NCBI RefSeq assembly: GCF_014764365.1
Contig: NZ_CP061718.1
Coordinates: 1,550,001-1,614,000, forward strand
From: Roseococcus microcysteis
GTDB taxonomy: Bacteria; Pseudomonadota; Alphaproteobacteria; Acetobacterales; Acetobacteraceae
Direction of reading: 5' to 3'
DNA: 64,000 nt
Position 1 is the first letter of the stretch. The number at the start of each line of letters is the position of its first letter. This document shows, one piece after another, positions 1-19,032 of this stretch. Both the position numbers and the translations under genes were made by a program. Under the pieces are notes generated by a model, which saw nothing but the letters and a program-made list of their open reading frames with translations, was not told the origin of the DNA and searched no databases.

Positions 1-2755
1 GCAGCGCGTGCAGGTTTTCGTCGAAGGATGGTCTGCCGCCGGGCAAGACCGCGAGGGGTACGTGCACGGTCACCGGACGCTCCTGTCCGATCCGGAGTAC
101 CCGGCCAGTGCACTGGTCCTCGACCGCCGGGTTCCACCACCGGGCCAGGTGCACGACGTGATTCGCCCGGGTCAGCGTCAGGCCGACCCCGCCCGCACGC
201 GGGGAGAGCAGCATGACGTCGAACCCGCCCGGTGCCTCCTGGAACCTGTCCACACGAGCCTGGCGCGCCGCGCCAGCAACCTTGCCGCTAATCGTCATCG
301 GTGCCGCAGGCAGCCGATATCTGCGCTGAAGCAGCCCCGCAATCCGCGCCATCATCGTGAGGTCGTCCAAGAAAACCAACGCACGCTCATCGCGCTCGGC
401 GATGGCATCTAGGGCTTGAAGCGCCAGGCGAAGGCGGGCAGAGCCGGCGATCAGCTCGGCATCGTCGGGAGCGGCGTCGGCGTCGGGGTGCAAGCTGACA
501 GCACGGAGCCGCTGAAGCGCCTCGAGAACGCGGCCTGCGCCCTGATCACTCCGACCGAGGGCGACCGCCTCCTCGTAAGCCGCGAGTTGCGCCCCCTGCA
601 TTTCGGCCGTCATGACGACGTCGTTGCGGGGCGGCAGATCTGGAAGGCGGTCCTCCTTGAGGCGACGGAGGAGAAGCGGCGGACGGCCGCCAATCGAGCG
701 ATCCAGCGACGCCTTGAGTTCAGCAAGGCGCTCCACTGTCGGAGCTGCCTCATACGTGGCGCTGAACCGCCGCAGGTCCCCGAGATGGCCGGGGGCGACG
801 CCATCCACGATGCACCAGAGATCCGCCAGCCGGTTCTCTACTGGCGTTCCAGTCAGAGCTACCCGGAAGTCGGCATTCATTGCCTTGGCCGCGTCAGTCA
901 GCCGAATCCCTGGGGTCTTCACCTTCTGCGCCTCGTCCAGCAGCATCGCCGCGAAGCGCACTGCGCCGAAGTCGCGGTCATGGTCACGCAGTGTCTCGTA
1001 CGTGGTCAGGACCCAGTCGGCGTCCCGCAGCGCCGCCAGGTCGAGGCCGGGCGCTCCGCCGGATGGCAGACGCAGGCCCGCGAGCCCCTTCCCGTAGGCC
1101 TGCACGAGCCGCCCGAGCCCCGGTGCGACAAGATGGCGGTCGTGCTCCGCGCGCCAGTTCTCCAAGAGCCCCGTCGGTGCGACGATTAGCAGGGGTGCGC
1201 GCGTGACCTGGCCCGCCGTCATTCCTTCGCGCAACCATGCGAGGAACGCCAAGCCCTGAAGCGTCTTGCCAAGCCCCATATCATCCGCCAGCAACACCCC
1301 CGGGCTGCCAACGGCCCAGTTGCGCTGCAGCCAAACGAGCCCCTCTCGCTGGTGCTCCTTCAGCGGCGTCCGGAGCGACGCTGGAGCCGCTGCGCGAGGC
1401 GTCGGCCTCCGCTGCACCAGCGCCTCAATGTCCCTCGCCGTCTCATTCGGCTTGATGAGCAGGACCTCGGTGGGCGAGGGCTCAGCGGTGCCGCTTCCAT
1501 CGCGCGACCTAGGCAACAGCGGCGCGAGGGACGCGACCGTCGCATCGCTCGCTGGAACTTGGACGGGTCCGTCGGGCGTTTCGACCTGCACCGTTGGCCG
1601 CCCTACAGCGATGGCTTCCCTGATGTCGGTCGACAGCCGCTCAGCCTGTTCTGGCGTCAGCGGTATGCGCTGATCACCAACGACGATGCCGCGCTGGCTT
1701 GGGCTCTCTCCCCCGCCTGTGCCATTCGGTGCGCTGCTGCCGAACCAATCGTTCCCCGAGAGTTCGATCCACGGGAGCACACGAGGCTGCCACAGTCCAA
1801 GGCCGACAACCCGGTCGGACCAGGCCGGCGTTTCGACGACCAGAGAGTCAAGCAGGGCAGCGTCGGCCTCGTCGCCGATCGCTGCGCGGATCGCAGCGCG
1901 AGGTTCGCGCAGAAACGAGCGTCGTTCAGCCGGCGGGCCTGCGGCGATGCGGCGCGCTACTTCAAGTGCCTGCCGCAACGGCGGTGATAGGACGACGTAG
2001 ACGCCCCCAGGCAGAGTGTACACGGGCCGTGCGGTCGGCCAGCGAAGGAACTGGTCGTTCCCGAACGCGCGCTGGCGGTCTTCCGGCAGGAGCGGAGCGT
2101 CGCCGGCCCCGGCACGGTGCAGTACCGGGACAATCTGCAGGTCGTCACCGGCGCCGGTCGCGTCTAGCGAGAGAGCGTCCGCCTCGAGGATGGTGACAGT
2201 GCCGAGCAACCCGGTCGCTTCGGCAGAACCGGTCAATGCCGCGGTCGGAAGGGCTTCCCTGAGCGCGGCGAGTGCGCGCAATCGGGGCGCATCGCCCTGG
2301 CCTGCAGCCGCCGCGTAACGGTCGACAGCCTCCGCGACGGCAAAGAGTGTCTCAGGCAGCCTCCGCCAGCCGTCAGCCTCCCGCAGCCAAGCCCCGACGC
2401 GCTCGACGCCGAGGACGTTCTGGCCGCCAGGGCGCGTCCAACGCAAAGAAGCGGTGAAGTCGGACCGCAGCATGATGCCGCTGCCCTCGACTACAGCACG
2501 CAGCGACGTAGCCGGTGGCAAGTCCAGCCGCGCCGCCTCTGCCGCCGTGAGGCGCGCCACCGCAGCGTGCTCCACCAGAAGGTAGTCATCGGCCTCGATC
2601 GCTGCGCCCTCAATGACGAGGCGGCGCGCGATGTCGGCTCCCCGATGGCCCGAGAGGCCCCACGACGCCGGCGGAAGTACGTCTGCGCCCGAAGCGAGGC
2701 GCAGCTCGGTACCTGCTGGCGCAGGCACGGCGGTCATGCGAAGCACGGGCGTCAT
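1..2755 (-). CDS. zorD: ZorD, SNF2-family helicase of type I Zorya (C-terminus beyond window)
   Basis: Reads on the minus strand from an ATG at 2755 that overlaps the zorC stop (ATGA) and stays open to base 1, giving 918 codons with the C-terminus missing. Helicase motifs are in the expected order: Walker A GLGKT at about residues 494-498, the DEAQ box at 607-610, TGTP at 635-638, GGVGLTL near 855, then an RIGQ-type motif VI close to the edge. This is the SNF2/Swi2 layout. In known type I Zorya, ZorD is an ATP-dependent helicase/nuclease that attacks invading DNA after the ZorAB motor senses infection. The roughly 480 residues before the helicase core are unannotated here. Whether a nuclease domain follows cannot be seen. 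Confidence 0.9.
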   Translation of the reverse strand, partial: MTPVLRMTAVPAPAGTELRLASGADVLPPASWGLSGHRGADIARRLVIEGAAIEADDYLLVEHAAVARLTAAEAARLDLPPATSLRAVVEGSGIMLRSDFTASLRWTRPGGQNVLGVERVGAWLREADGWRRLPETLFAVAEAVDRYAAAAGQGDAPRLRALAALREALPTAALTGSAEATGLLGTVTILEADALSLDATGAGDDLQIVPVLHRAGAGDAPLLPEDRQRAFGNDQFLRWPTARPVYTLPGGVYVVLSPPLRQALEVARRIAAGPPAERRSFLREPRAAIRAAIGDEADAALLDSLVVETPAWSDRVVGLGLWQPRVLPWIELSGNDWFGSSAPNGTGGGESPSQRGIVVGDQRIPLTPEQAERLSTDIREAIAVGRPTVQVETPDGPVQVPASDATVASLAPLLPRSRDGSGTAEPSPTEVLLIKPNETARDIEALVQRRPTPRAAAPASLRTPLKEHQREGLVWLQRNWAVGSPGVLLADDMGLGKTLQGLAFLAWLREGMTAGQVTRAPLLIVAPTGLLENWRAEHDRHLVAPGLGRLVQAYGKGLAGLRLPSGGAPGLDLAALRDADWVLTTYETLRDHDRDFGAVRFAAMLLDEAQKVKTPGIRLTDAAKAMNADFRVALTGTPVENRLADLWCIVDGVAPGHLGDLRRFSATYEAAPTVERLAELKASLDRSIGGRPPLLLRRLKEDRLPDLPPRNDVVMTAEMQGAQLAAYEEAVALGRSDQGAGRVLEALQRLRAVSLHPDADAAPDDAELIAGSARLRLALQALDAIAERDERALVFLDDLTMMARIAGLLQRRYRLPAAPMTISGKVAGAARQARVDRFQEAPGGFDVMLLSPRAGGVGLTLTRANHVVHLARWWNPAVEDQCTGRVLRIGQERPVTVHVPLAVLPGGRPSFDENLHAL

Positions 2756-4236
2756 CTCAGCTTGTAGTCTTCTGGCACCAGCCGCAGCTGCGTGTGGCTC
2801 TGGAGGAAAGCGGCAGCACATCCCTGCCAGAGGTAGCCTTTCGGATCCCGGTGCCAGAGCCCTCCGCCGTCAAAGGCGCCCCCCCTGCCCTTGATCGGAT
2901 GATCAGGGAAGTCGAGGCACTTCGCCCGAAGGTCCCGCGCCTCGTAGTGCGTGCGGTAAAGCGCAGGGCAACGTGGGTCGCCGATCTCCCACGCCCGCAC
3001 CGGCCCAACATTGCTCCACTCGCTGAGTACAATGTTCCCGAGCCTGATCAGGAGCACAGCTTGTTCGCCGTACTGGCCCGAGACCTCCATGCGCCCATGG
3101 GCACTCGCTAGGTCCTTCACAGCCTTCGCCCGGGCTGCCATGCCGGGGCCGAGCACGACCCAGACTTCGGCAGGCTGGTGGCCGGGCATCTTGCGGAGGC
3201 AGGCACGCCAGAACGCGCGCCGGTACTGCCACTGTGGGTCGTTGTTGGTTTCGCTAATCAGCGCAAAGAAGGTCTCAAGCGAGGCGGCGGCAAGCCAACT
3301 GCGCATGAGCTGCGCGCAGGCCTCAGGCGCTGCACGCCACCGCTCAGGCCGGAGTCGAGGGTCTCCGACGACTCGGAGGAGGAAGGCCTTTATCTCTTCC
3401 CTCGGCGCGTTCGCCGCCGGCGGGTCGCGCAGCCAGGGGTCGAGGCATGCGGCGATCGTCTCCCCCGCGAGGTCGGCGACTCGCAGTGCCGGCTCGGCGA
3501 TCTCGCGCCCCGATCTGTCGCGACGGACGCGCTCAATCTCGAGGATGACAGCGGCTCTAGCCCAGGCCTCGCGCGCGCCAGTCCCACGAAGCGCGGTTGG
3601 CAGCGCCGCCAGCATCGCCCGAACGGCTGCACGAAAGAAGCGTCCCTCGGCCCGGAGTGGGTCATCCATCCCGGTTTCCGAGAGGACCGCCTCGACAGGA
3701 TCGCTACCGCTTAGAAGAGCAGATCCGACGCGCTCGGGCCCGCGTGCGGCGTCGAACATGGAGTAGCGCCTGTGCGCGCGGTCCCAGGGCTGAAGCCGGG
3801 GGTCTTGCGTACGCGCCAGGAGGTTCGCCGCCGCGCGGCCAGCCTCGGGTAGGCGCGCCCGGTCCGGGCCGAAGTCGCGCAGCCAAGCCTCGACCAGCTC
3901 GCGAAGCCAGCGAGGCCTGGCAGCCGCCCCTGCCAAGAACGCCTCCAGGAGCCCGGGGAACGCGGCGGCCTGCGGATCGCGGTCCCAAAAGACCATCGGG
4001 GCACGGCGGAGTGTCCGCACTGGGATGCTGGCCAGTGCACCGGCCGCACAAGCCTTGCGGAGTTCCTCGCGCAGGATCTCCAGAACCTCACCGGACGGAA
4101 GTGCCGCAGCCTCGTCCTTGCGGAACAGCTCTCCTGCCTGGCGGAGGCACGCCGGTCTCTCTGGCAGAGCGGGCTTTCGCTGGAGGAGATCCTGGAGCGC
4201 AGCAAGCTCACGCAGGGCGGCGGTGGATTCCGTCAT
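2752..4236 (-). CDS. zorC: ZorC, EH-signature protein of type I Zorya
   Basis: 494 residues, translationally coupled to zorB upstream (4233-4236) and zorD downstream by ATGA overlaps. The N-terminal three quarters is helical, Arg/Ala-rich and carries no familiar motif. The C-terminal 100 residues hold a conserved-looking block with SEWSNVGPVRAWE (Glu about 406) followed by DHPIKG (His about 446) and GGLWHRDPKG (His about 462). This fits the Glu/His pair that names the EH-signature domain. In type I Zorya, ZorC is a DNA-binding effector that works with ZorD. The call rests on this block plus its place between ZorB and ZorD. Confidence 0.88.
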   Translation of the reverse strand: MTESTAALRELAALQDLLQRKPALPERPACLRQAGELFRKDEAAALPSGEVLEILREELRKACAAGALASIPVRTLRRAPMVFWDRDPQAAAFPGLLEAFLAGAAARPRWLRELVEAWLRDFGPDRARLPEAGRAAANLLARTQDPRLQPWDRAHRRYSMFDAARGPERVGSALLSGSDPVEAVLSETGMDDPLRAEGRFFRAAVRAMLAALPTALRGTGAREAWARAAVILEIERVRRDRSGREIAEPALRVADLAGETIAACLDPWLRDPPAANAPREEIKAFLLRVVGDPRLRPERWRAAPEACAQLMRSWLAAASLETFFALISETNNDPQWQYRRAFWRACLRKMPGHQPAEVWVVLGPGMAARAKAVKDLASAHGRMEVSGQYGEQAVLLIRLGNIVLSEWSNVGPVRAWEIGDPRCPALYRTHYEARDLRAKCLDFPDHPIKGRGGAFDGGGLWHRDPKGYLWQGCAAAFLQSHTQLRLVPEDYKLR

Positions 4237-5240
4237 CGGGCGCCGCCCTGCTGCAGAGCGGCGATGTCCTCCAGCAGTCGTCGGATCTCGTCCGAGGTGC
4301 GCGCTGAGAGGATGAAGCGAAGATCGATACGACGATTCTGGGCGAGGTGCGCCTCGGAGAGCGTCATCGCTTCGGGAAGCGGTCGCCGCTGGCCGTATCC
4401 GGACACGCCTAGTAGTGGCTGGGCGGACGGGTTCCGAAGTTCGTCGAGAACGCGCTGCTGCTGCCGGATCTGGGCGAAGACGGTCAGCGCCCGAGCGGTA
4501 GAGAGCAGGTCGTTCCTTGCTTGGGAATCAGCCGCCGTCATGTTCGCGAAGGGCTGGCGATCCGTGTGCCCCTCGACGAGCATCGCCTCCAGGATCGGGA
4601 TATCAGCCTGCTCGCAGTTCTGACGCGGCGCGCCATACGAGAAGCATGGCAGCACCTCAGCCAGCACTTCGCCAAGAGCAGTCACAGTGCGTCGCGCCGT
4701 ATCGGTGAGGTCACTGCCACCGGTCGGGAAAGGCACCGCGTCAGACAGCCTCAGGACGCCCGACCTGGGATCCAGGATGAATTGGATCCGCCGCGCCTCC
4801 AGCCCTCGGGCAAGCCGCTGCAGCAGGGCGTTCCGTGCCGCCTCGCGGTCCGCAAGTTCGCGCCGGAGCTTGTCCGCGGCCTCTTGCAACCTCGCACGAA
4901 GCATCTCGTTCTGCGCTCGGAGGCGGGCGGCCTCCTCCTCCTGTGCGCGGGCCCGAGCCGACTGCCGCTCGGCCTCGGCTAGCTGTCGCTCGGCTTCGAT
5001 CCGCGCGGCTTCCGCGATCGCGCGCGCAGCTTCCGCGTTGGCCCTTTCCAATTGAGCGGCCTGCTCCGCGCGCTGCAACTCCGCCCGAAGCCTGTCGAGG
5101 CTTGCGCTATCATCACGAAAGTTCAACGCGAAGACGGTCAGCATGAGAAGGAAGACGAAGAGGACGCCCACCATCAAGTCGCTGACGGAGGCAAAATAGC
5201 CTTCGGATTCGCCCTCCTCGGCCAGTCCGGCTCCACTCAT
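4233..5240 (-). CDS. zorB: ZorB, MotB/OmpA-like stator subunit of type I Zorya
   Basis: 335 residues. A short cytoplasmic N-terminus is followed by one membrane helix (about 20-38) that begins SVSDLMVG. Asp21 lies at its start, where MotB-type subunits place their ion-carrying Asp. Residues about 45-145 form a long Ala/Glu/Arg coiled coil. The C-terminal part (about 150-330) is an OmpA/MotB peptidoglycan-binding domain with VEGHTDRQ near 220 and a later GYGQRRPLP. ZorA5B2 complexes span the inner membrane and anchor in peptidoglycan, sensing envelope disturbance. It overlaps zorA by 4 bases at 5237-5240. The coil between membrane helix and OmpA domain looks long for a ZorB, but I could not compare lengths directly. 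Confidence 0.92.
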   Translation of the reverse strand: MSGAGLAEEGESEGYFASVSDLMVGVLFVFLLMLTVFALNFRDDSASLDRLRAELQRAEQAAQLERANAEAARAIAEAARIEAERQLAEAERQSARARAQEEEAARLRAQNEMLRARLQEAADKLRRELADREAARNALLQRLARGLEARRIQFILDPRSGVLRLSDAVPFPTGGSDLTDTARRTVTALGEVLAEVLPCFSYGAPRQNCEQADIPILEAMLVEGHTDRQPFANMTAADSQARNDLLSTARALTVFAQIRQQQRVLDELRNPSAQPLLGVSGYGQRRPLPEAMTLSEAHLAQNRRIDLRFILSARTSDEIRRLLEDIAALQQGGAR

Positions 5241-7471
5241 CCTTGGCTCGCCCGGCGCTGCGGTCGCGCGCCACCAATTTCCTCGACGGAATTTTCAAGG
5301 CTCTGGGCGACTGCTAGGAGGCCACCGACGCTCTTCTGAAGCCCCTGATCGAGGCCGGAGACGAATTCAGCGATCTGTCGCTGGTAGCCGCCCAGCGCCT
5401 CCTGCAAGGCGCGCAACGTCTTCGCAAGCCCCTCGTCGAGCCCGCCGAAGCGCTCGGACGCCTGGGCGAGACGCGCGGAAAGGTCGCTCGCGCCGCGCTG
5501 GGCTGCTTCGATCGATGCCGCTGCACCGAGCAAGCCGTCCACGGCGCTCCGGAGCGCCTGAGCGGTATCGCGCCAGGGCCCAAGTGCATCCCGGGCCGCT
5601 TCCGCCGCCGTACGGAGGTCCGTCGTCGCCGCCGACATCGGCGCAGTTGCTGCCCGCAGCGCCTTGTCGAGGGCCTCGGCCTGACGCGCCAGCTCCGCCG
5701 AGGCGTTGCCAAGCGCACCGAGCCGTTCCCCGAGACCTTCACTGCCCTGACGCAGCGTGCTCGCGGCCGAAGTCATGCCTGCGCTCGCAGCGCTTGCACC
5801 GTCGCGCAGGGCGGCGCCAGCTGCCTCGGCCGCCTCCCGCAGCCTGGCCGCGCCCGCCGTCACGTCCTTCCCAAGGTCGGCAGCGGCACCGCGTAGGGCG
5901 TCTCCACCCGCTTCCGCGCCGCGAGTCAGGGCTCGGCCGCTGTCGTCGAGCGTGGCGCCAAAGCGGTCCAGGACCGCACGCAAGTCGTCACGCATTGCCT
6001 CTGTGGCGGCAACCAGCCGCCCGCTCGCGTCGGCTGCTCCGCCGCCGAGCGTCTCGGCCACCTTCGTTGCTGTGGCCTCGAGCGCCTCGGCCGTTCGGGT
6101 GATCGTCGCTGCAAGCGCGGTGGTGGACTCGGCGCCAGCACGCCTCTGGCTCTCTGCGAGTTCCCGCAACTGCTGGAGCAAAGCCTCGATGGGGCCTGTC
6201 AGGCGCGAGATCCCGTCAGCAGCGCCGTCCTCGAGCCGCGCCTGGAAGGCGGCAACAGCTGACGTGAGGGCCGCAGCTGTTTCAGCCATGCGACGTGCCA
6301 GATCGTCTCCAGCCGCACGATTGCTCCGCCCGGCCTCTTCGGCCGCGTCGCGAAGACCCCGGACCAAGGCCGCCATCTGCTCGGTGATCCCGCCGAGCGC
6401 GGCTTCCGTGCCGCGACCAAGGCGGGACGCCATATCCTCTGCGGCCCGGCCCATGCGCAGAGCGGCTGCGTCCATCGCTCCCTGCAGGCCGTCCAGGCGA
6501 GTCCCGAGAGCTTCGAGTGTAGCAGCGGTGCTGCGCATGCTCTCGCCGACGGCGCCCTCAAGCTTCTCGAGAAACGCCTTCAGCATAGTCTGCAGAGCGT
6601 CCTCGTTCTGGTTCGCGAGCCCGGACGAGAGCTTCTCGATCGCTTCCGCTAGGGGTTTGATGTGCTGTTGTAGGCCCGCATCAAACTCGCGTTCCAGCGT
6701 GCTGCCGAGATTGACGAAGAACTCGCTGCCGATGCGCTGGACGTCCGCATACTGCTTCGCAAGGATTGCGTTGGCCTCGGCCTGCAGCGCCGCCTGAGTT
6801 TTTAGAGGAAGTCGCTCCTGCAGCGCTGCGAGAAAGCCCGCCATTGCTGCTTCGGTGGCTTGCAACCTTCTCTTTCGGTACAGCGCATACCCGATCGAGA
6901 GACCGAGGCCGGCAAGCGACGTCACGAACTTGACCGATGCGGAGCCCAGCAGGTCACGAAGTGCAGCGTTCCTGCGCGCCTGATCGACGCCCTCTGCGAC
7001 CACCTCGCCTGCCGCCGACAGCGCCGCTGCGAGCCCGAGAAACGTGACGAAGAGTCCGGCGCCGACCAGCAAGCCAGGAAGGGCAGCGTGGTATCGGAGA
7101 TCCGCGCCGGCAGCGCGGACCAGCGTGGCAAGGTCGAACCAGCGGCGAGGCTCGGTCGTTGCCACGACCGGCTGCCCAGGCCCAGATGGAACGATCAGGC
7201 TTTGGCGAAGGCCGCGCCAAGAGCCTCCGAGGAGCCTGTCTTGCGCCAGCACTGACGATGCCGTTTCGTAGGACGCGGCGAAAACGACAGGGTCAGCTTC
7301 GTCGCCCAGAGCTCGACGTCCGCCGGCGAAGGCGGCGGCTACGGCCGAGGTTGCTCGCCTCAGTTGGAACGCGGAGTAGCCGGCCCAGATGACCAGGCTG
7401 GCTAAGATGGAATAAATGACTGGCTCCCAGGCCAGATAGGGCGCAAGCGCCCGCAGTAACTCGGTAAGCAC
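5237..7471 (-). CDS. zorA: ZorA, MotA/ExbB-like motor subunit with long cytoplasmic tail
   Basis: 744 residues. Membrane helices lie near 18-36, 131-152 and 178-198. The last two carry GLFVTFLG (Thr143) and KFVTSLAG (Thr184), the polar positions that line the ion path in MotA/ExbB/ZorA proteins. From about 205 to the end is a very long Ala-rich helical tail with repeated Ala/Glu/Arg/Thr heptads, as in type I ZorA, whose tail passes the signal to ZorC and ZorD. It is first in the operon. The start ATG at 7471 faces a divergent gene across a 69-bp gap, so the Zorya promoter must lie there. Frame and context leave little doubt. Confidence 0.92.
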   Translation of the reverse strand: MLTELLRALAPYLAWEPVIYSILASLVIWAGYSAFQLRRATSAVAAAFAGGRRALGDEADPVVFAASYETASSVLAQDRLLGGSWRGLRQSLIVPSGPGQPVVATTEPRRWFDLATLVRAAGADLRYHAALPGLLVGAGLFVTFLGLAAALSAAGEVVAEGVDQARRNAALRDLLGSASVKFVTSLAGLGLSIGYALYRKRRLQATEAAMAGFLAALQERLPLKTQAALQAEANAILAKQYADVQRIGSEFFVNLGSTLEREFDAGLQQHIKPLAEAIEKLSSGLANQNEDALQTMLKAFLEKLEGAVGESMRSTAATLEALGTRLDGLQGAMDAAALRMGRAAEDMASRLGRGTEAALGGITEQMAALVRGLRDAAEEAGRSNRAAGDDLARRMAETAAALTSAVAAFQARLEDGAADGISRLTGPIEALLQQLRELAESQRRAGAESTTALAATITRTAEALEATATKVAETLGGGAADASGRLVAATEAMRDDLRAVLDRFGATLDDSGRALTRGAEAGGDALRGAAADLGKDVTAGAARLREAAEAAGAALRDGASAASAGMTSAASTLRQGSEGLGERLGALGNASAELARQAEALDKALRAATAPMSAATTDLRTAAEAARDALGPWRDTAQALRSAVDGLLGAAASIEAAQRGASDLSARLAQASERFGGLDEGLAKTLRALQEALGGYQRQIAEFVSGLDQGLQKSVGGLLAVAQSLENSVEEIGGARPQRRASQG

Positions 7472-7540
7472 TCTGGGACGCCCCCTAGGAAATCAAACCC
7501 TGAGTCGAATAGCGCCCCATTATGTAGCAACCTACCGGCT
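7472..7540. promoter_or_regulatory. divergent promoter region between zorA and the unknown gene
   Basis: This 69-bp gap separates zorA (leftward) from the 331-residue gene (rightward). It is visibly more AT-rich than its surroundings (stretches such as gaaatcaaaccctg and attatgtag). It is the only non-coding space available for the Zorya operon promoter, so the two units probably share control. I could not assign a clear -35/-10 pair. Confidence 0.45.
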
Positions 7541-8536
7541 ATGCGAAGCGAGATCGAAGTCGCAATTTTCGATGGCGAAACGCTGGTTCAGCGTTGCCCC
7601 TGTACCCCCCGGGACCTGCCCGATGGCCGTCCCGGCGTCGTTTGGCGCGGTATCGTGTACCCCCTGCTTCCCGGCGACCGTATCGACGTCGGAGCCCCAG
7701 AGGACCAGGCCGGAGCAGAGCAGTCATTCGTGGTCCTCCCTGGCGAGGGATCGACCTGGGTACTGGTTCGGGGGCTGGCCAGCACGCTCAACGAAACGCA
7801 AGCCCGCCTTGAGGCGGCGGGTATCCGCGTCTCACGGACCGGTAGGTGGTTGGGCGATACGGTTAGCGACGTCGCGTTCGACTGGTTCTTGCGCTGTGAG
7901 GGTGTGCTCGGGACAGATCAGGTTGCGGAGGTGCTTGGCGCGAGTCGAGTGGACGGCGCTTCCGCCGAGGCAAGGGTCGCTGTTCTTGAGCAGCACCTTA
8001 TTGAGATGCGGGCAGCACTCGCCAGCCTTGCGGAGCAGCTCAAGGACGCGGTGCGTGTGCCTCCTGCGCGAGCGCAACCTCGTCCTCCCGCCGCACCCGA
8101 GCGCGACTTTGCCCTTGAAGCGGCTCTCGAAAAGATCCGGGAATTAGAGACGCGGCTAGACGCGGTCCCACCGCGGGCAGCGCCGACGCGATCAGCTGCG
8201 ATCCGACTACAGGAGGAACTTACAGCCGCGCTCACAACACTGAGGCCAGATATCATCCTGCTTCGCGACAGCATCCAGGTCGCGGTTGGCGAGTTCGCCT
8301 CGCGCGGAGCCTTCTACAAGATGCTCCAAGAACTGCCCGTTACGGGAGGGCGGCCGGACGGGTGGAAGGCACTCCGCGGGGCAGAGCGGTGGTGGGAACG
8401 GCATGTCTCGACCGGTCAAGACGACAGCGGCCGAGCATACGCTCGCTTCGATCCCGCGGCTCGACAGTGGGAGGTTCTCCTGGGTTGGAAGGGAGAACAG
8501 CCTCGAGATATCGGTTGGCTGAAGCGTAAGGCCTGA
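7541..8536 (+). CDS. unrecognised coiled-coil protein divergent from Zorya
   Basis: 331 residues, family not recognised. Residues 1-105 look beta-rich and globular (LPDGRPGVVWRG, then LLPGDRIDVG). About 105-165 and 175-210 are helical, with heptad-like Leu/Ala spacing (RVAVLEQHLIEMRAAL, then LEAALEKIRELETRLDAV) split by a Pro/Arg linker. The last 120 residues form a second domain containing REDS-free helix LLRDSIQVAVGEF and a Trp-rich end (GWKALRGAERWWERHV, WEVLLGWKGEQ). No signal peptide, membrane helix or nuclease motif is visible. It faces zorA over a likely shared promoter and may be a Zorya regulator or accessory component, which is inference from position only. It could instead be independent cargo. 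Confidence 0.7.
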   Translation: MRSEIEVAIFDGETLVQRCPCTPRDLPDGRPGVVWRGIVYPLLPGDRIDVGAPEDQAGAEQSFVVLPGEGSTWVLVRGLASTLNETQARLEAAGIRVSRTGRWLGDTVSDVAFDWFLRCEGVLGTDQVAEVLGASRVDGASAEARVAVLEQHLIEMRAALASLAEQLKDAVRVPPARAQPRPPAAPERDFALEAALEKIRELETRLDAVPPRAAPTRSAAIRLQEELTAALTTLRPDIILLRDSIQVAVGEFASRGAFYKMLQELPVTGGRPDGWKALRGAERWWERHVSTGQDDSGRAYARFDPAARQWEVLLGWKGEQPRDIGWLKRKA

Positions 8537-8626: not shown

Positions 8627-9078
8627 TTAGGGTAGCTTACGCTTTATGACCTGGACCGCCAGCGGCGCCGCGGCGACGTCCACCGTCGACGCGCTGACAT
8701 TCCGCGCTGTGACGCGCACGGTGTTGTTCGACCACACATGGCGGTCGAGCACGAAGGCGATGCCGCTGCTGTCGAGGGAGGCGTCCGCGAAGTCGCCCCG
8801 CCGCGCGCCTGGCACCGTGACGTCCACGTTGGCCGTCGCGCCAGGCCCGAGGCTCGGCAGGTCCCAGCTGGTCTCAAGCGCCAGCGTCCGCGTCCCGGCA
8901 GGCAGCGACGGGCAGCCGTAGAGCACCGCGGCGCATCCTCTGGCAGGCCGTAGAGCCGCAGCGCCTCGAGCTCGATCTGCCCGTCGAAGCCGATGATGCC
9001 GATCTGCGCGAAGGCCACGTTCACGCCGAGCCGCACCGTCTGCCCGGTATGAAGACGCTGCCTGGCACGCCTATCCAC
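8627..9078 (-). pseudogene. frameshifted small phage tail protein (copy 2)
   Basis: The N-terminal part reads in one frame (LGVNVAFAQIGIIGFDGQ, then EALRLYGLPEDAP). The C-terminal part continues one base out of register (VLYGCPSLPAGTRTL, then SWDLPSLGPGATANVDVTV and WSNNTVRVTARN), ending at 8627. The switch lies near 8926-8940, at gcgccgcgg on the coding strand, and restoring one base gives a single frame of about 150 codons. The protein is probably a small tail-tip or fibre-associated phage protein. Its C-terminus is clearly similar to that of the fragment just upstream (9098-9382). Confidence 0.6.
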
Positions 9079-9097
9079 CTTTCGCAGGCGAATGAGG

Positions 9098-9382
9098 TTA
9101 TGGCACGCGCCGCTTCACCACCCCCACCGACAGCGTGGCCGCCGTCAGGTCAAACGTCGCCGCGGAGATGTTCCGCGCCATCACCCGCACCGTGTTGTTC
9201 GACCACACCGCGGCATCGAGCTCAATGAACCGCGTCGACGACACCAGCAACGCCTGCGCCAGGTCGCCCGCCCGCGCCCCGTTCACCGTGACGTCGATGA
9301 GCGATGTCGCCCCCGGCGCCAGGCTCGGCAGGTCCCAAGACACCTCGGCTGCGAACTCCCGCCGCCCCGACCCAAAGACCGG
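9098..9382 (-). pseudogene. C-terminal fragment of small phage tail protein (copy 1)
   Basis: The open frame begins directly after the stop of the truncated tail-tip gene (PVFGSGRREFAAE without a credible start). It then runs through SWDLPSLAPGATSLIDVTV and WSNNTVRVMARNISA to a stop at 9098. It matches the C-terminal half of the neighbouring copy at 8627-9078, so the N-terminal half is missing. The simplest reading is a deletion that fused the truncated tail-tip gene to the rear of this gene. A short product starting from an internal GTG at 9343 is possible but unlikely to be functional. Confidence 0.55.
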
Positions 9383-10807
9383 CTAGGGGCTGTCGCCGGC
9401 CGCGCGCTCGTCCACGGCGGGGTTCCAGTTCCAGACAGCGGGGTCCTCCTCGGACAGCGCCAGGTCCACCCCGCCATCCGGCGACAGCCGCCAGCCCGTC
9501 ACCCGCGCCGGGAAGGCCCCGACCCGGTCGAGCGCCACCGTGACCCCATCCCAGGGCCGCAGCCGCAGCGCCGACAGGTTCGCCGGAAACGCCACCTCGC
9601 GCTGGCGCCGGACCCGCTCCAGCTCGGCTTTCATCAGCCGCTGCACGGTGGCGACCGAGGTGGTGAGCGGGAACTCCAGATCGCGGTAGATCGCCTCTCC
9701 GCCATCCTCGACCACGTAGTTGGCGGCGAGCAGCGGCGGGGCGTCGGTGGGCTGCCAGTTTTTCGCGGGGTCGACATAGACGGCGCGCACCCCGTTGGGG
9801 AGATCCCGCCGCGGCCGGCTGCCCTGGATGGTGACGTCGCCGCGCAGGTCGTCCGAGGTGAGTGTGGCCGAAGGCAGCGCGGGTCCGCCCGCATGGATAA
9901 AGAACCGCCCGCCCGAGACGACCATCGCCCCGGCCATGGCGGCGACCAGCTTGCGGGTGATGGCAATCTTGCCCTCGCCGAGCGAGACGCGGCCGTTCAC
10001 GGTGTAGCGGCGCTCATGCAGACCGGCGCGGGTGCCGATCAGCTCGTCGCAGATGTTGGCGGCGGCCATGAGGGCGGGAATGTCGATGTCGTCCCAGGAG
10101 GCTTTCCAGCCAAAGGGCGCGGTGAGGTACCAGGCGAGGCAGAGCGCCGGGTTGTCGGACCAACCCACGGTGCCGGTGCGCGGGTCGAGGATGGTGTCGG
10201 CGCCCTCGACCAGGGCGGCGATGTTGGGCGGGCCGGCGGGAAAGGCCTCGGCGGTGATTTTCAGGCGCAGCGCGACATAGGCGCGACCGCGACCGCGGTG
10301 CTCGGCGATCCATTTGCCGCCGGTCTCGGCGATGAGGTTGGTATCGGCCAGCTGGTCCACTGTGCTCAGGTGCCGGTCGATCCTGACCAGCCTGGCAAAC
10401 TTCGGATCCGTGGCCAGCGTGTCGCCCAGCCAGACATCGCCAATGCCGCGGACGCGGTGCGCGGCGAGCACCACCACCGAATAGAACCAGCCATCGGCCC
10501 GGCCCTCGTCGTCCGGTGCTGAGTGGATGAACACGATGGGTCCGCCGACCTTGCAGCGGCCAAAGACGATTTGGTGCTCGGTGATGGGCTGGCGAAAGGA
10601 CTGGGTGCGGCCAGCGCCGGGGGCGGTGGCATCGTCGCCGGGCCGGGTCGGCGCGGTCGGGCGCTTGGCGGGGAAGACCGAGGCGCCGATGGAAGAGACT
10701 ACGAAGGCCGCGCCGGCGCCGACCAGCGCGCCGAGCAGGCCGCCGCCGATGGCCGCGGAGGCCACGCCGCCGGCGACGACGGCGATGAGGGGGATGGCAG
10801 CGGGCAT
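9383..10807 (-). CDS. truncated phage tail-tip (host specificity) protein, remnant
   Basis: 474 residues. A hydrophobic Gly/Ala N-terminus (about 1-45) is followed by a tail-tip/gpJ-like central region (FGRCKVGGPIVFIH, then WFYSVVVLAAHRVRG, WLGDTLA, TGTVGWSDNPALCLAWYL) and an insertion-strand-rich rear. It stops after NWNPAVDERAAGDSP. Related tip proteins continue past this point with fibronectin-like domains: the tip gene of the intact prophage is 742 residues, with WDPATEEQAVDEG at the matching place. The reading frame is intact, but the gene appears cut short by a deletion at about 9380. It starts immediately after the stop of the DUF6950-like fragment. Confidence 0.65.
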   Translation of the reverse strand: MPAAIPLIAVVAGGVASAAIGGGLLGALVGAGAAFVVSSIGASVFPAKRPTAPTRPGDDATAPGAGRTQSFRQPITEHQIVFGRCKVGGPIVFIHSAPDDEGRADGWFYSVVVLAAHRVRGIGDVWLGDTLATDPKFARLVRIDRHLSTVDQLADTNLIAETGGKWIAEHRGRGRAYVALRLKITAEAFPAGPPNIAALVEGADTILDPRTGTVGWSDNPALCLAWYLTAPFGWKASWDDIDIPALMAAANICDELIGTRAGLHERRYTVNGRVSLGEGKIAITRKLVAAMAGAMVVSGGRFFIHAGGPALPSATLTSDDLRGDVTIQGSRPRRDLPNGVRAVYVDPAKNWQPTDAPPLLAANYVVEDGGEAIYRDLEFPLTTSVATVQRLMKAELERVRRQREVAFPANLSALRLRPWDGVTVALDRVGAFPARVTGWRLSPDGGVDLALSEEDPAVWNWNPAVDERAAGDSP

Positions 10808-11077
10808 TCAGCCAATCCTCCAGGCGGTGGTGCAGGCGGTGATCGGCACGCGCAGCAGGCCCCGCGGCCCGAGGAAGGCGGCCCGCCCTGCATCCACTAC
10901 CACACCGAGCCGATCGGGCTCCGGGGCGAGTACGACATCGCCCATGCGGGCAAAGGCCGGCTGCATGCGGGAAAAGCCCGCGCTGTCGGCGGCGGCAGCG
11001 AGGTCCGGCAGCACGCGGATCTGTGGCCGGGTGCCGGTCACCGCCTCCACTGCCGCGAGGGCCCGCACCGGTGTCAC
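10808..11077 (-). pseudogene. N-terminally truncated DUF6950-like phage protein
   Basis: About 90 residues with the typical rear of the DUF6950 family that precedes tail-tip genes (FARMGDVVLAPEPDRLG, then AAFLGPRGLLRVP, ending CTTAWRIG). The Trp/Cys-containing front half (WGAADCC in the intact prophage homologue at 26812-27222) is missing. Its apparent start (a GTG at 11077) lies where MFS transporter coding begins on the other strand. The gene was therefore cut at this junction and is almost certainly non-functional. Confidence 0.6.
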
Positions 11078-11789
11078 GGAGGTGGCGGCACTGCGCTCGG
11101 CCTTCCTGCTCTACGCCCTTCTCGGGGTCGCCTGCTTCGTGGCGTATCGCGCCCTCCCGCCCTTGCCGGCCACGGACCGGCGCATCCGCCACGCGCCGCT
11201 GGGCCCCTCCCGCGGGATCGTGGTGAAGCTGGCGACGCTGTTCAGCGTAGACAGCTTCGCCGGCGGGCTCGCGGTGCAGGCGCTGCTCGCGCTCTGGCTG
11301 TTCGAACGCTTCGGTCTGTCGCTGGCGCAGGCAGGGTTGTTCTTTTTCTGGTCTGGAGTGCTGTCGGCCTTCTCCTTCCCGGTGGCTGCTTGGCTTGCGG
11401 GGCGGGTCGGGCTGATCAACACCATGGTCTACACGCACATCCCGTCGAGCCTATGCCTGATCGCGGCGGTGCTGGCGCCCTCGGTGGAGTGGGCGCTGGG
11501 CCTCTTGCTGGTGCGGGCGGCGCTGTCGCAGATGGACGTGCCGACACGCGCCTCCTACGTCATGGCCGTCGTCACGCCGGCCGAGCGGACGGCGGCGGCG
11601 AGCTTCACGGCCGTGCCGCGCAGCCTGGCGGCCGCGGCCGGGCCGGCGATCGCCGGCGCCATCATCGCGGCAGGCTATCCGACGGCGCCCTTCATCCTCT
11701 GCGGTGTGCTCAAGATCGCCTACGACCTGACGCTGCTCTGGGCCTTCCGGCACATCAGGCCGCCGGAGAAGCAAGCAGCGCGCACATGA
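11073..11789 (+). pseudogene. C-terminal half of an MFS transporter
   Basis: From about 11073 the plus strand encodes an MFS C-terminal bundle of roughly 238 residues with about six to seven membrane helices (AFLLYALLGVACFVAYRAL, then LLALWLFERFG, GLFFFWSGVLSAFSFPVA) and the conserved loop LSQMDVPTRASYVMAVVTP, to a stop at 11789. Upstream of 11073 the frame reads through the phage remnant and is not transporter-like. The N-terminal 150-200 residues are absent. The gene was interrupted or deleted when the phage/Zorya segment joined here. Its missing half may lie left of the window if the segment is a simple insertion. Confidence 0.8.
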
Positions 11790-16374: not shown

Positions 16375-19032
16375 ATGGCCAATCCCCGCGACCCGGACCG
16401 CCCCGACCCCGACGCGCTGCTGGCCCTGGCGGCGCGGGAGGGGCGCGGGCGGCTCAAGGTCTTCCTCGGCGCGGCGCCCGGCGTGGGCAAGACGCATGAG
16501 ATGCTGACCGAGGCCCGGCGCCGCATGGCCGGCGGCGCGGAGGTGCTGGCCGGCATCATCGAGACGCATGGCCGGGCCGAGACCATCGCCCAGATCGGCG
16601 ACCTGCCCATCCTGCCGCGCGCGCGCCTCGAACATCGCGGCCAGGTGCTGGAGGAATTCGACCTCGACGCCGCCCTCGCGCACCGCCCCGACATCCTGCT
16701 GCTGGACGAACTCGCGCACAGCAACGCCCCCGGCAGCCGCCACCCCAAGCGCTGGCAGGATGTGGAGGAGCTGCGCGACGCCGGCATCGAGGTCTGGACC
16801 ACCATGAACGTCCAGCACCTGGAGAGCCTGTCGGACGCGGTCGCGCGCATCGCGGGCATCCGCGTGGCCGAGACGGTGCCCGATGCCGTGCTGGCCGGCG
16901 CCGACGCGGTGGAACTCATTGACATCCCGCCCGCCGAGCTGCTGGAGCGGATGCGCCAGGGCAAGATCTACCGCCCCGACCAGGCCGCCCGCGCCATGCG
17001 CGGCTTCTTCCGCGAGGGCAACCTGGCGGCGCTGCGCGAGATGGCGCTGCGCCGCACCGCCGAGCGGGTGGATGCCGACGTCACCGGCTACATGCGCGCC
17101 AATGCCATCGCGGGGCCATGGCCGGCGGGGGACCGCGTGCTGGCGCTGGTGGGCGCAGATGCCTCGGCCGAGACGGTGGTGCGCCAGGGCCGCCGCATCG
17201 CGGACGCGCTGCGCGCGCCGCTGGTGGTGCTGCATGTGGAACGCCCGGGGGAGGTGGATTCCAGCGACCCCACGCCCACCCTGCGCCTCGCGGAGGAGCT
17301 GGGCGCCGAGGTGGAGACGGTGGTGGGGGCGGACCTGCCCGCCACCATCCTGGCCCAGGCGCGGGCGCGGAACGCCTCACATATCGTCATCGGGCGGGGG
17401 CGGCCGGGGGTGTGGCGGCGCTGGCTGGGGCGGACGCTGTCCGCGACGCTGGCGCGCCGGGCCACCGACTTCACGCTGCACATCGTGCCCGGCCCGGCCG
17501 GCAAGGCGCGCGCGGCGCCCTCCGCGCCGGCCGCGCTGCCGCCCTGGCTCGGCTGGGGCGCCGTGCCGGCGGCCGTCGCCCTGGTGGTCACGCTGGGCTA
17601 TGGCGCGGAGGGGCTGCTGGCCGAGCGCACGCTGGGCATGGTGTTCCTGGCCGTGGTGGTGGCGCTGGCGGCCCTGCTGGGGCCGTGGCATGCGGCCCTG
17701 GGCGCGGTGCTGGGCTTCCTCAGCTGGAATTTTTTCTTTTTGGAGCCGCGCTACACCTTCGAGCTGCTGGACGGCGCGGACCTGGTCGGCCTTGGCGCCT
17801 TCGCCGCGGTGGCGCTGCTGCTGGCCGGCACCACGGGCAGGCTGGGGCGGTCCGTCCGCACGGCGCGGGCGCGGATGCTGGCGCTGCGGCGCCTGGTGGA
17901 GTTCAGCCGCCGCCTGGGTGGGCCCGGCGGGCTGCCGGAGCTGCTGCCCGCCGTGGCCGAGGAAGCCACGCGCGTGGCCGGCGCGCCCAGCGCGGTGGTG
18001 ATGCCGCTGGAGCCGCTGCTGCCGGGCGCCGCGCCGGAACCGGTGGTGCGGGCCGCCATGCCCGTGACCATGGAGGTGGACGAGACGGCAATGGCGGCCG
18101 CGCGCTGGGCCTTGGCGCAGGGCCGTCCCGCCGGTCGCGACACCGACACCCTGCCCACGGCATCCTGGCAGTTCCGCCCCATGCGGACCGCGCGCGGCGT
18201 GGTGGGGCTGGTGGGCGTGAAGCTCGATGACCGGGCGGAGCCCCTGGCGGGCGAGACGGACAAGGCCCTGACCGCCCTGCTCGACCAAGCGGCGGTGGCC
18301 ATCGAGCGCGCGCAGCTGATGGAGCGCGAGGCCCGCGGCGCCGCCCGCGCCGAGACCGAGCAGCTGCGCACCGCGCTGCTGACCTCGCTCGGTCATGACC
18401 TCCGCACGCCGTTGACCTCCATACGTGGCGCGCTGGGCACGCTACGCGCCACGGGCGAGACGCTGCCGGCGGAAACCCGCGCCGACCTGCTACTGGCCGC
18501 CGAGGAGGAGACGGCGCGGCTGTCGCGCTACCTGTCGAACATCCTGGACATGGTGCGCATCGAGCACGGGCAGCTGGAGCCGCGGCGTGAGCCGGTGAAC
18601 ATCCCGGAGGCGCTGGAGGTGGCGGTGGCGCGCGCCCGCCGCGCGACGGGACGCGAGATCACCGTGACCGTCGGGGAACGCCTGACCGAACCGCGCCTGG
18701 ACCCCGCGCTGCTGGACCAGATCCTGGGCAATGTGTTGGACAACGCCCTCAAATTCTCGGAAGCGCCCCTGCGCGTGACGGCGCGGCGCGAGGGGCATGA
18801 GGTGGCCATCGCGGTGGAGGATGACGGGCCGGGCATTCCGGCCGAGGATCTGCACCGCGTCTTCGACCCCTTCTTCCGCGTGACGCGCGCCGACCGCGTG
18901 GCCGCCGGCACGGGCCTCGGCCTCGCCATCTGCCGGGGGCTGGCGCATGCCATGGGCGGGCGGATCGCGGCGGAGAGCCCCATCCATCACGAGAGCGGCG
19001 GCACGCGCATCACGCTGCGCTTCCCCGCATGA
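16375..19032 (+). CDS. kdpD: KdpD, K+-responsive sensor histidine kinase
   Basis: 885 residues in the standard KdpD layout. The N-terminal KdpD domain has Walker A GAAPGVGKT (32-40) and the DELAHSNAPGSRH region. A universal-stress-like domain (about 250-370) follows, then four membrane helices (about 385-490), a GAF-like section, and the kinase core with H-box LGHDLRTPLTS (phospho-His about 674), the N box NVLDNALKFS, and GTGLGLAICRG. It phosphorylates KdpE when K+ is low. It overlaps kdpE by 4 bases (19029-19032). Confidence 0.96.
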   Translation: MANPRDPDRPDPDALLALAAREGRGRLKVFLGAAPGVGKTHEMLTEARRRMAGGAEVLAGIIETHGRAETIAQIGDLPILPRARLEHRGQVLEEFDLDAALAHRPDILLLDELAHSNAPGSRHPKRWQDVEELRDAGIEVWTTMNVQHLESLSDAVARIAGIRVAETVPDAVLAGADAVELIDIPPAELLERMRQGKIYRPDQAARAMRGFFREGNLAALREMALRRTAERVDADVTGYMRANAIAGPWPAGDRVLALVGADASAETVVRQGRRIADALRAPLVVLHVERPGEVDSSDPTPTLRLAEELGAEVETVVGADLPATILAQARARNASHIVIGRGRPGVWRRWLGRTLSATLARRATDFTLHIVPGPAGKARAAPSAPAALPPWLGWGAVPAAVALVVTLGYGAEGLLAERTLGMVFLAVVVALAALLGPWHAALGAVLGFLSWNFFFLEPRYTFELLDGADLVGLGAFAAVALLLAGTTGRLGRSVRTARARMLALRRLVEFSRRLGGPGGLPELLPAVAEEATRVAGAPSAVVMPLEPLLPGAAPEPVVRAAMPVTMEVDETAMAAARWALAQGRPAGRDTDTLPTASWQFRPMRTARGVVGLVGVKLDDRAEPLAGETDKALTALLDQAAVAIERAQLMEREARGAARAETEQLRTALLTSLGHDLRTPLTSIRGALGTLRATGETLPAETRADLLLAAEEETARLSRYLSNILDMVRIEHGQLEPRREPVNIPEALEVAVARARRATGREITVTVGERLTEPRLDPALLDQILGNVLDNALKFSEAPLRVTARREGHEVAIAVEDDGPGIPAEDLHRVFDPFFRVTRADRVAAGTGLGLAICRGLAHAMGGRIAAESPIHHESGGTRITLRFPA

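Follow-up and report, generated by a model that had tools for sequence, protein, structure and literature searches.

A fifth gene divergent from a Zorya operon

The window, by which we mean the whole 64,000-nucleotide stretch of Roseococcus microcysteis DNA analyzed here, carries a Zorya operon at its left end and, divergent from it, an open reading frame (ORF) whose 331-amino-acid product we refer to by the working name X (Table 1). The frame opens with ATG, and its length and its distance from zorA are exactly those that the initial annotation had given. After X, the gene order is divergent zorA, then zorB, zorC, and zorD; the window covers only part of zorD, whose full length in the genome is 971 amino acids. 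Among the window proteins, PADLOC models recognized ZorA1 (2.4e-59), ZorB1 (2.2e-69), and ZorC1 (2.1e-66). The zorC product also matched Pfam PF15611 (EH_Signature; 1.9e-37, above the cut-off), and ZorD matched SNF2-rel_dom (1.3e-43) and Helicase_C (1.4e-12).

Table 1. Features of the Zorya locus and its right flank, in window coordinates
Feature	Position	Strand	Description and basis
zorD	2..2821	-	truncated by window start; SNF2-type helicase without C-terminal Mrr nuclease domain
zorC	2752..4236	-	EH_Signature
zorB	4233..5240	-	MotB/OmpA-like
zorA	5237..7471	-	744 aa, GTG start; MotA/ExbB/TolQ-like motor protein, long tail
Intergenic region between divergent X and zorA starts	7472..7540	.	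69 bp; presumed divergent promoters
Gene X, proposed fifth component of Zorya I variant	7541..8536	+	331 aa
X residues 1-58	7541..7714	+	small all-beta part, W35-R36-G37 motif; AF2 model, conservation
X residues ~59-136	7715..7948	+	alpha/beta part; AF2 model; probable source of weak ACT-like matches
X residues ~137-236	7949..8248	+	long helices, coiled-coil-like linker, least conserved part; AF2 model, dN/dS, conservation
X residues ~237-331	8249..8533	+	domain with predicted RelE/HigB fold; AF2, Foldseek; 18/31 invariant residues
Two short ORFs	8627..9343	-	similar to each other by eye
Phage-tail_3 gene	9383..10807	-	Pfam match 1.8e-11; adjoins Zorya island
ORF with MFS_1 match	10527..11789	+	residues 245-416, 1.4e-13

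X is a real coding gene under purifying selection. Its frame is open in 17 aligned homologues, and dN/dS against the nearest relative (73% identical) is 0.109 over the 331 codons, a rough value given that dS exceeds 1; by part, it is 0.09 for the N-terminal region, 0.17 for the helical region, and 0.084, the lowest, for the C-terminal region. No membrane-spanning-like stretch was seen in X. As the initial annotation had it, X resembles no known Zorya component: PADLOC (PADLOC-DB 2.0.0) returned no family at E up to 1, which extends to ZorE, ZorF, and ZorG, the accessory proteins of types II and III, and neither Pfam nor NCBIfam gave a match near cut-off for X itself. Comparison with ZorA-D profiles by hhalign (probabilities 0.06-1.5%) led us to reject X as a duplicate of another Zorya protein.

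The suggestion that X and zorA share a promoter found no backing in the 69-bp gap, where there is one sigma-70-like match oriented to zorA and none oriented to X. GC3 is 0.67 in X, 0.74-0.76 in zorA-C, and 0.92-0.94 in two nearby genes that we named kdp-like by eye. Given the low GC3 that X and zorA-C share, Zorya and X look like a single unit, apparently acquired together. On the right flank, the Phage-tail_3 gene and the two short ORFs resemble a prophage or phage-tail remnant, and the ORF with the MFS_1 match has the appearance of a truncated transporter gene.

Linkage of X to Zorya across genomes

The initial annotation proposed a strong tie between X and Zorya, under which homologues should lie next to zorA and not mostly elsewhere. 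This is what we found: wherever a long X homologue turned up, in 20 loci altogether, its divergent neighbor is zorA. The 20 loci comprise those of the family sample and of a species-genome scan, one Azospirillum plasmid, and a frame-split copy in genome G747; two of them are from different strains of Azospirillum oryzae, and one (L053) matches residues 26-324 only, its beginning apparently lying in another frame. The G747 copy (L078) has X, zorA, and zorC each frame-split and represents either a decaying copy or sequencing errors. In 16 of the 17 loci measured, 50-90 bp separate the conserved protein starts of X and zorA; the remaining locus has 150 bp between them.

Within the family sample, X matched 11 of 397 genomes (E up to 1e-3), nine of them over a long stretch (our own included) and two just in short fragments; in one of the nine, a short fragment accompanies the long match. 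The window zorC matched 13 of the 397, ten of them strongly. Long X and strong zorC occur together in eight genomes, X alone in one, and zorC alone in two (Fisher's exact p = 2.8e-14, uncorrected for kinship). The X-only genome (G132) has a 3.4-kb contig that ends in zorA. The contigs of the zorC-only genomes (G170 and G327) begin inside zorA, and we do not count these two as true absences of X, since about the first two-thirds of zorA is missing from the assemblies as well. As for the weak zorC matches, the one in G399 (2.6e-9) is a genuine, more distant Zorya I without X, and those in G012 and G245 (E 4e-4 to 5e-4) contain internal stops.

The same picture emerges on a broader scale. An X profile run against 84,980 species genomes found 15 loci, all in Alphaproteobacteria going by their titles, of which six repeat loci of the family sample; X loci span several alphaproteobacterial families. 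X was found in one of 72,556 plasmids, itself the Azospirillum Zorya locus, and searches with either half of X alone returned only that same record. None of 50,697 phage records has an X relative, nor did three viral-contig scans find one, and a phage-borne or plasmid-borne family is thus rejected. X-like sequence without a neighboring Zorya consists of short or weak fragments only. One (L010) has 57 residues and is apparently decayed, in a genome (G379) in which the window zorC search found no match; another (L012) has 41 residues near a contig end in a genome (G098) that also has full Zorya and X; a third (L011, in G419) has 76 residues at E 3.4e-4. Four weak hits in the class sample are confined to the helical region.

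We also compared the flanks of 15 X-positive loci, taking every ORF with 80 or more codons. X, zorA, zorB, zorC, and zorD are the sole families present in all 15. Judged by position and sequence, the remaining frequent ORF families are shadow frames of X or zorA-D, and true flanking genes recur in at most three of the 15 loci, by eye.

X marks a single clade of Zorya I

X is confined to some Zorya I, not all. In the class sample, the zorC family PF15611 occurs in 13 of 372 genomes, and a long X match in four of 385, all four being among the 13. In the phylum sample, PF15611 occurs in 37 of 383 genomes; two of these (G000 and G678) had already been included, 12 with weak or partial matches were left out, and X was present in one of the 23 regions fetched.

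A maximum-likelihood tree of 49 ZorD rows places all 17 X-positive rows in one clade (support 100/100), with the program warning of long branches and uneven composition in several rows. The three other X loci are without a row, L013 because it was not included and L030 and L053 because their contigs have no ZorD. G170 and G327, in which X is untestable, fall inside the X clade. All 30 rows labeled X-negative fall outside it, the label being provisional in four (L124, L126, L127, and L138), whose contigs end in or just beyond zorA, so that the upstream side is missing. In L038, L081, and L083, too, the contig holds little beyond the upstream side of zorA, yet the genomes concerned belong to samples that were searched for X: G399 to the family sample, and G688 and G490, going by the order of their handles, to the class sample. 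L086 and L128 gave no ZorD match and are excluded from the tree and from the tail counts below. Since X falls in a single clade, it was probably gained once, and no loss is seen within the clade, which so far is known only in Alphaproteobacteria.

That X is a passenger, a chance neighbor of Zorya, might be argued from this same tree: the X-positive loci form one clade, several are closely related, and their linkage may have a single origin. However, adjacency held in 20 of 20 loci over several alphaproteobacterial families, no other true flanking gene is seen by eye in more than three of 15 loci, the association within the family sample is strong even if its p value ignores kinship, and X is under purifying selection. 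On the adjacency, the single clade, and the flank comparison we rule out a passenger gene, which we regard as highly improbable. Altogether, X is almost certainly a component of this Zorya variant.

ZorD of the X clade lacks the Mrr nuclease domain

According to PMC12904381, membrane perturbation activates ZorAB, which recruits ZorC and ZorD, and injected DNA is degraded; PMC11890865 reports an Mrr-like nuclease domain of ZorD as earlier work. The window ZorD has 31 amino acids after its helicase, and no Mrr_cat was found. Such short tails are general among X-positive ZorDs, with 31-37 amino acids beyond the helicase in all 15 that have intact ends (the contig-cut L049 and the garbled end of L078 being excluded). 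In contrast, 24 of the 30 X-negative-labeled ZorDs have tails of 145-247 amino acids, and Mrr_cat was above the Pfam cut-off in 22 of these 24 (22 of 30 overall).

It would be tempting to conclude that loss of Mrr is always accompanied by X. This is not the case: the remaining six X-negative-labeled ZorDs (L038, L118, L119, L120, L122, and L131, with L122 possibly having a broken end) are also short-tailed, at 17-68 amino acids, and have neither X nor Mrr. Thus, Mrr loss does not require X. Both deep branches of the tree include ZorDs with Mrr tails, which makes loss in the X clade the simpler reading. As X arises once in the tree, the combination of X present and Mrr absent counts as one evolutionary event.

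The operon had been described as type I Zorya, and in much it is: all four genes are present in order, the ZorA1, ZorB1, and ZorC1 models match, and ZorD has the SNF2-type helicase. Two features are nonstandard: a fifth gene is constantly present, divergent from zorA, and ZorD has no C-terminal nuclease domain. For the latter reason we call it a variant instead of plain type I. The X locus is a distinct alphaproteobacterial Zorya I variant.

Predicted structure and conservation of X

An AF2 model of full X, built on 17 sequences, has a mean pLDDT of 78 and a pTM of 0.41, and the relative placement of its domains is therefore unreliable. Long helices are predicted at residues 142-172, 186-207, and 219-234; to call this part a coiled coil seems reasonable on a crude check of periodicity. 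The initial annotation had described two unfamiliar domains around a coiled coil, and the helices (about 142-234) fit the latter, but the C-terminal domain is predicted to take a familiar shape, the RelE/HigB fold. Foldseek with full X returned ACT-like domains (TM by target 0.53-0.59, E 0.02-0.05), with HigB2 also among the best matches; the ACT-like matches probably stem from the alpha/beta part. The ACT fold frequently has a role in small-molecule sensing.

Modeled alone, the C-terminal domain reaches a pLDDT of 89.7 and a pTM of 0.83. A leading helix is followed by the order strand-helix-helix-strand-strand-strand-helix, and the same topology is given for RelE in PMC11980606. The first 17 Foldseek matches in the PDB are all HigB2, HigB, or RelE entries (best E 3.5e-3, hence none at E < 0.001; probabilities up to 1.00; TM by target 0.35-0.65), several of which superpose poorly, with an rmsd of about 10-11. 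Further down the list, RelE 4fxe chains have a TM by target of 0.70-0.74 (0.73-0.74 for 4fxe_E and 4fxe_F), and further RelE and YoeB chains follow amid unrelated weak matches. A viral fold library gave no informative match. We describe the domain as predicted to fold like RelE/HigB, without implying membership of that superfamily.

Sequence comparison detected no link to these toxins. PDB sequence profiles and Pfam, the latter searched with 17 members, showed none to RelE families; hhalign against one shallow Gp49 alignment found no relation; and a simple alignment with Escherichia coli RelE scored no better than shuffled sequence (z 0.56). Several weak matches were considered and set aside as uninformative about the identity of X: TIGR04211 SH3_and_anchor (four of 10 members, best 0.0068), PDB sequence-profile matches (best 0.018, mostly coiled coils), and two phage protein families with unknown function. 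One of the latter, phrog_20432 (92 positions), matches nine of 17 C-terminal domains, the window's own not among them (best 7.4e-5). The matched part is roughly residues 25-85 of the domain as delimited at window 8180-8533 and in relatives, and the family may represent small phage proteins of similar fold; the other, phrog_2652, matches four of 17 (best 0.053). In a tblastn search of phages with the C-terminal domain, the best matches were five Gordonia phage records at E 6.

Conservation is concentrated in the same domain. Among the 31 residues that are invariant in the 17-row alignment, the 18 within the 95-residue C-terminal domain are S244, R255, L265, W284, E286, H288, S290, G292, D294, G297, R298, Y300, W310, L313, K317, Q320, D323, and L327. 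In the model, E286 and H288 lie on the second strand, R298 lies on the third, and K317 follows the fourth. RelE's catalytic residues, which we take to be among K52/K54, R61, and K80/R81, are not retained as such in X; reading by strand order and not by superposition, E286/H288, R298, and K317 would stand opposite these three groups, respectively.

X as a possible effector in place of the ZorD nuclease

Zorya senses phage at the envelope via an ion-driven motor, and how ZorAB recruits effectors is still being worked out. Our best explanation of the X locus, plausible but still tentative, is that X is both a fifth component and a RelE-fold effector that replaces the missing ZorD nuclease. The ZorAB motor, with ZorC and ZorD, would still sense and engage incoming phage, and catalysis would now fall to X instead of the Mrr domain that ZorD lacks. 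X would use its N-terminal domains and helical linker to bind the activated assembly of ZorA tail, ZorC, and ZorD; docking would release the RelE-fold domain, which would then cut RNA (probably mRNA, possibly ribosome-bound) or another nucleic acid near the entry site. Near X, we found no constant antitoxin, ASCH, or nuclease gene among flanking ORFs of at least 80 amino acids, a size below which an antitoxin could escape. With no such gene as a constant neighbor, the brake on X would presumably come from its N-terminal half or from Zorya proteins. RNA would be the favored target because of the RelE-type fold, with DNA cutting or pure binding also possible.

The predicted RelE-type fold, the invariant ionizable residues, and the Mrr-less ZorD of the same clade together point more to an effector than to other roles. 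Three observations count against this: no link to RNases was detected by sequence, six Mrr-less ZorDs occur without X, and the divergent layout resembles that of a regulator. The initial annotation had held an accessory sensor, inhibitor, or regulator to be plausible; the tie to Zorya is strong (20 of 20 loci), but such a role is not specifically supported, and the evidence leans to an effector.

The layout is indeed the main argument that X is a local regulator of zorABCD, acting via the intergenic region or a Zorya protein and using its RelE-type fold for binding. X is always divergent from zorA, with 50-90 bp between starts in all but one of 17 loci, as is typical of regulator-target pairs, and it evolves faster than zorA-D (73% versus 84-90% identity to the nearest relative). 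RelE acts in transcription control together with its antitoxin, according to PMC11980606. There are also weak matches to ParD (0.0019) and HTH_32 (0.0024). However, these came from one homologue each of 10 and are not common to the family: HTH_32 reappears in one of 17 C-terminal domains, at 0.064, and neither is among the matches of the window X itself. In addition, the intergenic sequences are dissimilar by eye except among near relatives, and the invariant ionizable cluster exceeds what a binding scaffold needs. We consider a regulator unlikely.

A further possibility is that X serves as a safety lock or as a licensing factor, whose helices clamp the ZorA tail or the nuclease-less ZorD and keep the system off, or which brings in a second infection signal, with the RelE-type domain inactive. 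This would suit a component expressed from its own promoter and the weak ACT-like matches of the X model, and ParE-type members of the fold are without RNase residues and inhibit gyrase (PMC11980606). Yet a lock does not explain why the RelE-type domain is the most conserved part of X, and under it no domain of the variant would be an evident candidate for cutting. We hold this reading to be rather improbable.

The effector reading can be carried further, to a Zorya whose effector was swapped from DNA to RNA cutting, the envelope-sensing motor activating an autoinhibited X RNase that halts translation near the injection site. In this specific form we find it doubtful. If true, such an RNA-cutting X would define a Zorya subtype of five proteins in which a sensor built on a membrane motor is coupled to an effector of the toxin type.

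Comparison with known systems

Different effectors or partners on a ZorAB core are already known from Zorya II (ZorE) and Zorya III (ZorF, ZorG), a modularity described in PMC11890865 and PMC8565338. The X locus is similar in principle, but X matches no PADLOC model and is added to zorC and zorD, replacing neither. With the RelE/HigB toxins (RelE/ParE superfamily, BECR fold), the C-terminal domain of X shares its predicted topology and its best fold matches. It differs in having no detected sequence similarity, in catalytic residues that are not identical, and in being fused to N-terminal domains and helices. Unlike a type II toxin-antitoxin module, X has no adjacent antitoxin constant across loci, as judged from ORFs of at least 80 amino acids.

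A close published parallel is PtuZ of ptuXYZ, a two-domain protein in which a helical linker lies between an N-terminal domain and a C-terminal domain of RelE-type fold (PMC11980606). The ptuXYZ genes form a candidate defense operon, and the partner PtuX is without the C-terminal HNH domain of its relatives (PMC11980606), much as ZorD is without its nuclease here. There are differences: the N-terminal domain of PtuZ is PIN-like, whereas that of X is predicted to be all-beta plus alpha/beta, perhaps ACT-like, and where X has Zorya proteins as partners, PtuZ has a PtuA-like ATPase and a DUF262 protein.

Searching the Zorya and RelE/anti-phage literature by titles and abstract openings, we found no X-like gene; subscription papers and the main Zorya I structure paper lie outside this coverage, and an earlier mention is possible. 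The X clade amounts to a natural domain-swap experiment, in which ZorABCD is kept, the ZorD nuclease domain is absent, and a fixed extra protein with a predicted RelE-type domain is present, and it bears on what the motor requires of its effector. The variant would add a further combination to the modular view of Zorya types I-III, and defense-finding software would gain a five-gene Zorya model.

Other genes and ZorD tails at Zorya loci

Just left of the window start, in the same genome (contig stretch L175), an ASCH-domain gene (17049-17603, + strand; Pfam 6.2e-05, above cut-off) is convergent with zorD. Two X-negative loci with a short-tailed ZorD have a homologue of it upstream of zorA, L120 at a distance of about 3.1 kb and L131 at about 36 bp; none was found in any other fetched locus, whether X-positive or not. 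L175 also has a small low-GC3 ORF (16500-16838, + strand; 112 amino acids) in which a PD-...-ExK-like motif can be made out by eye. This ORF matches nothing in Pfam, is without homologues in the other loci, and is possibly a nuclease fragment. Finally, the ZorDs of L132 and L082 have a C-terminal extension of 243-247 amino acids with no Pfam match (searched as the tail alone for L132 and as the whole ZorD for L082), perhaps another effector swap.
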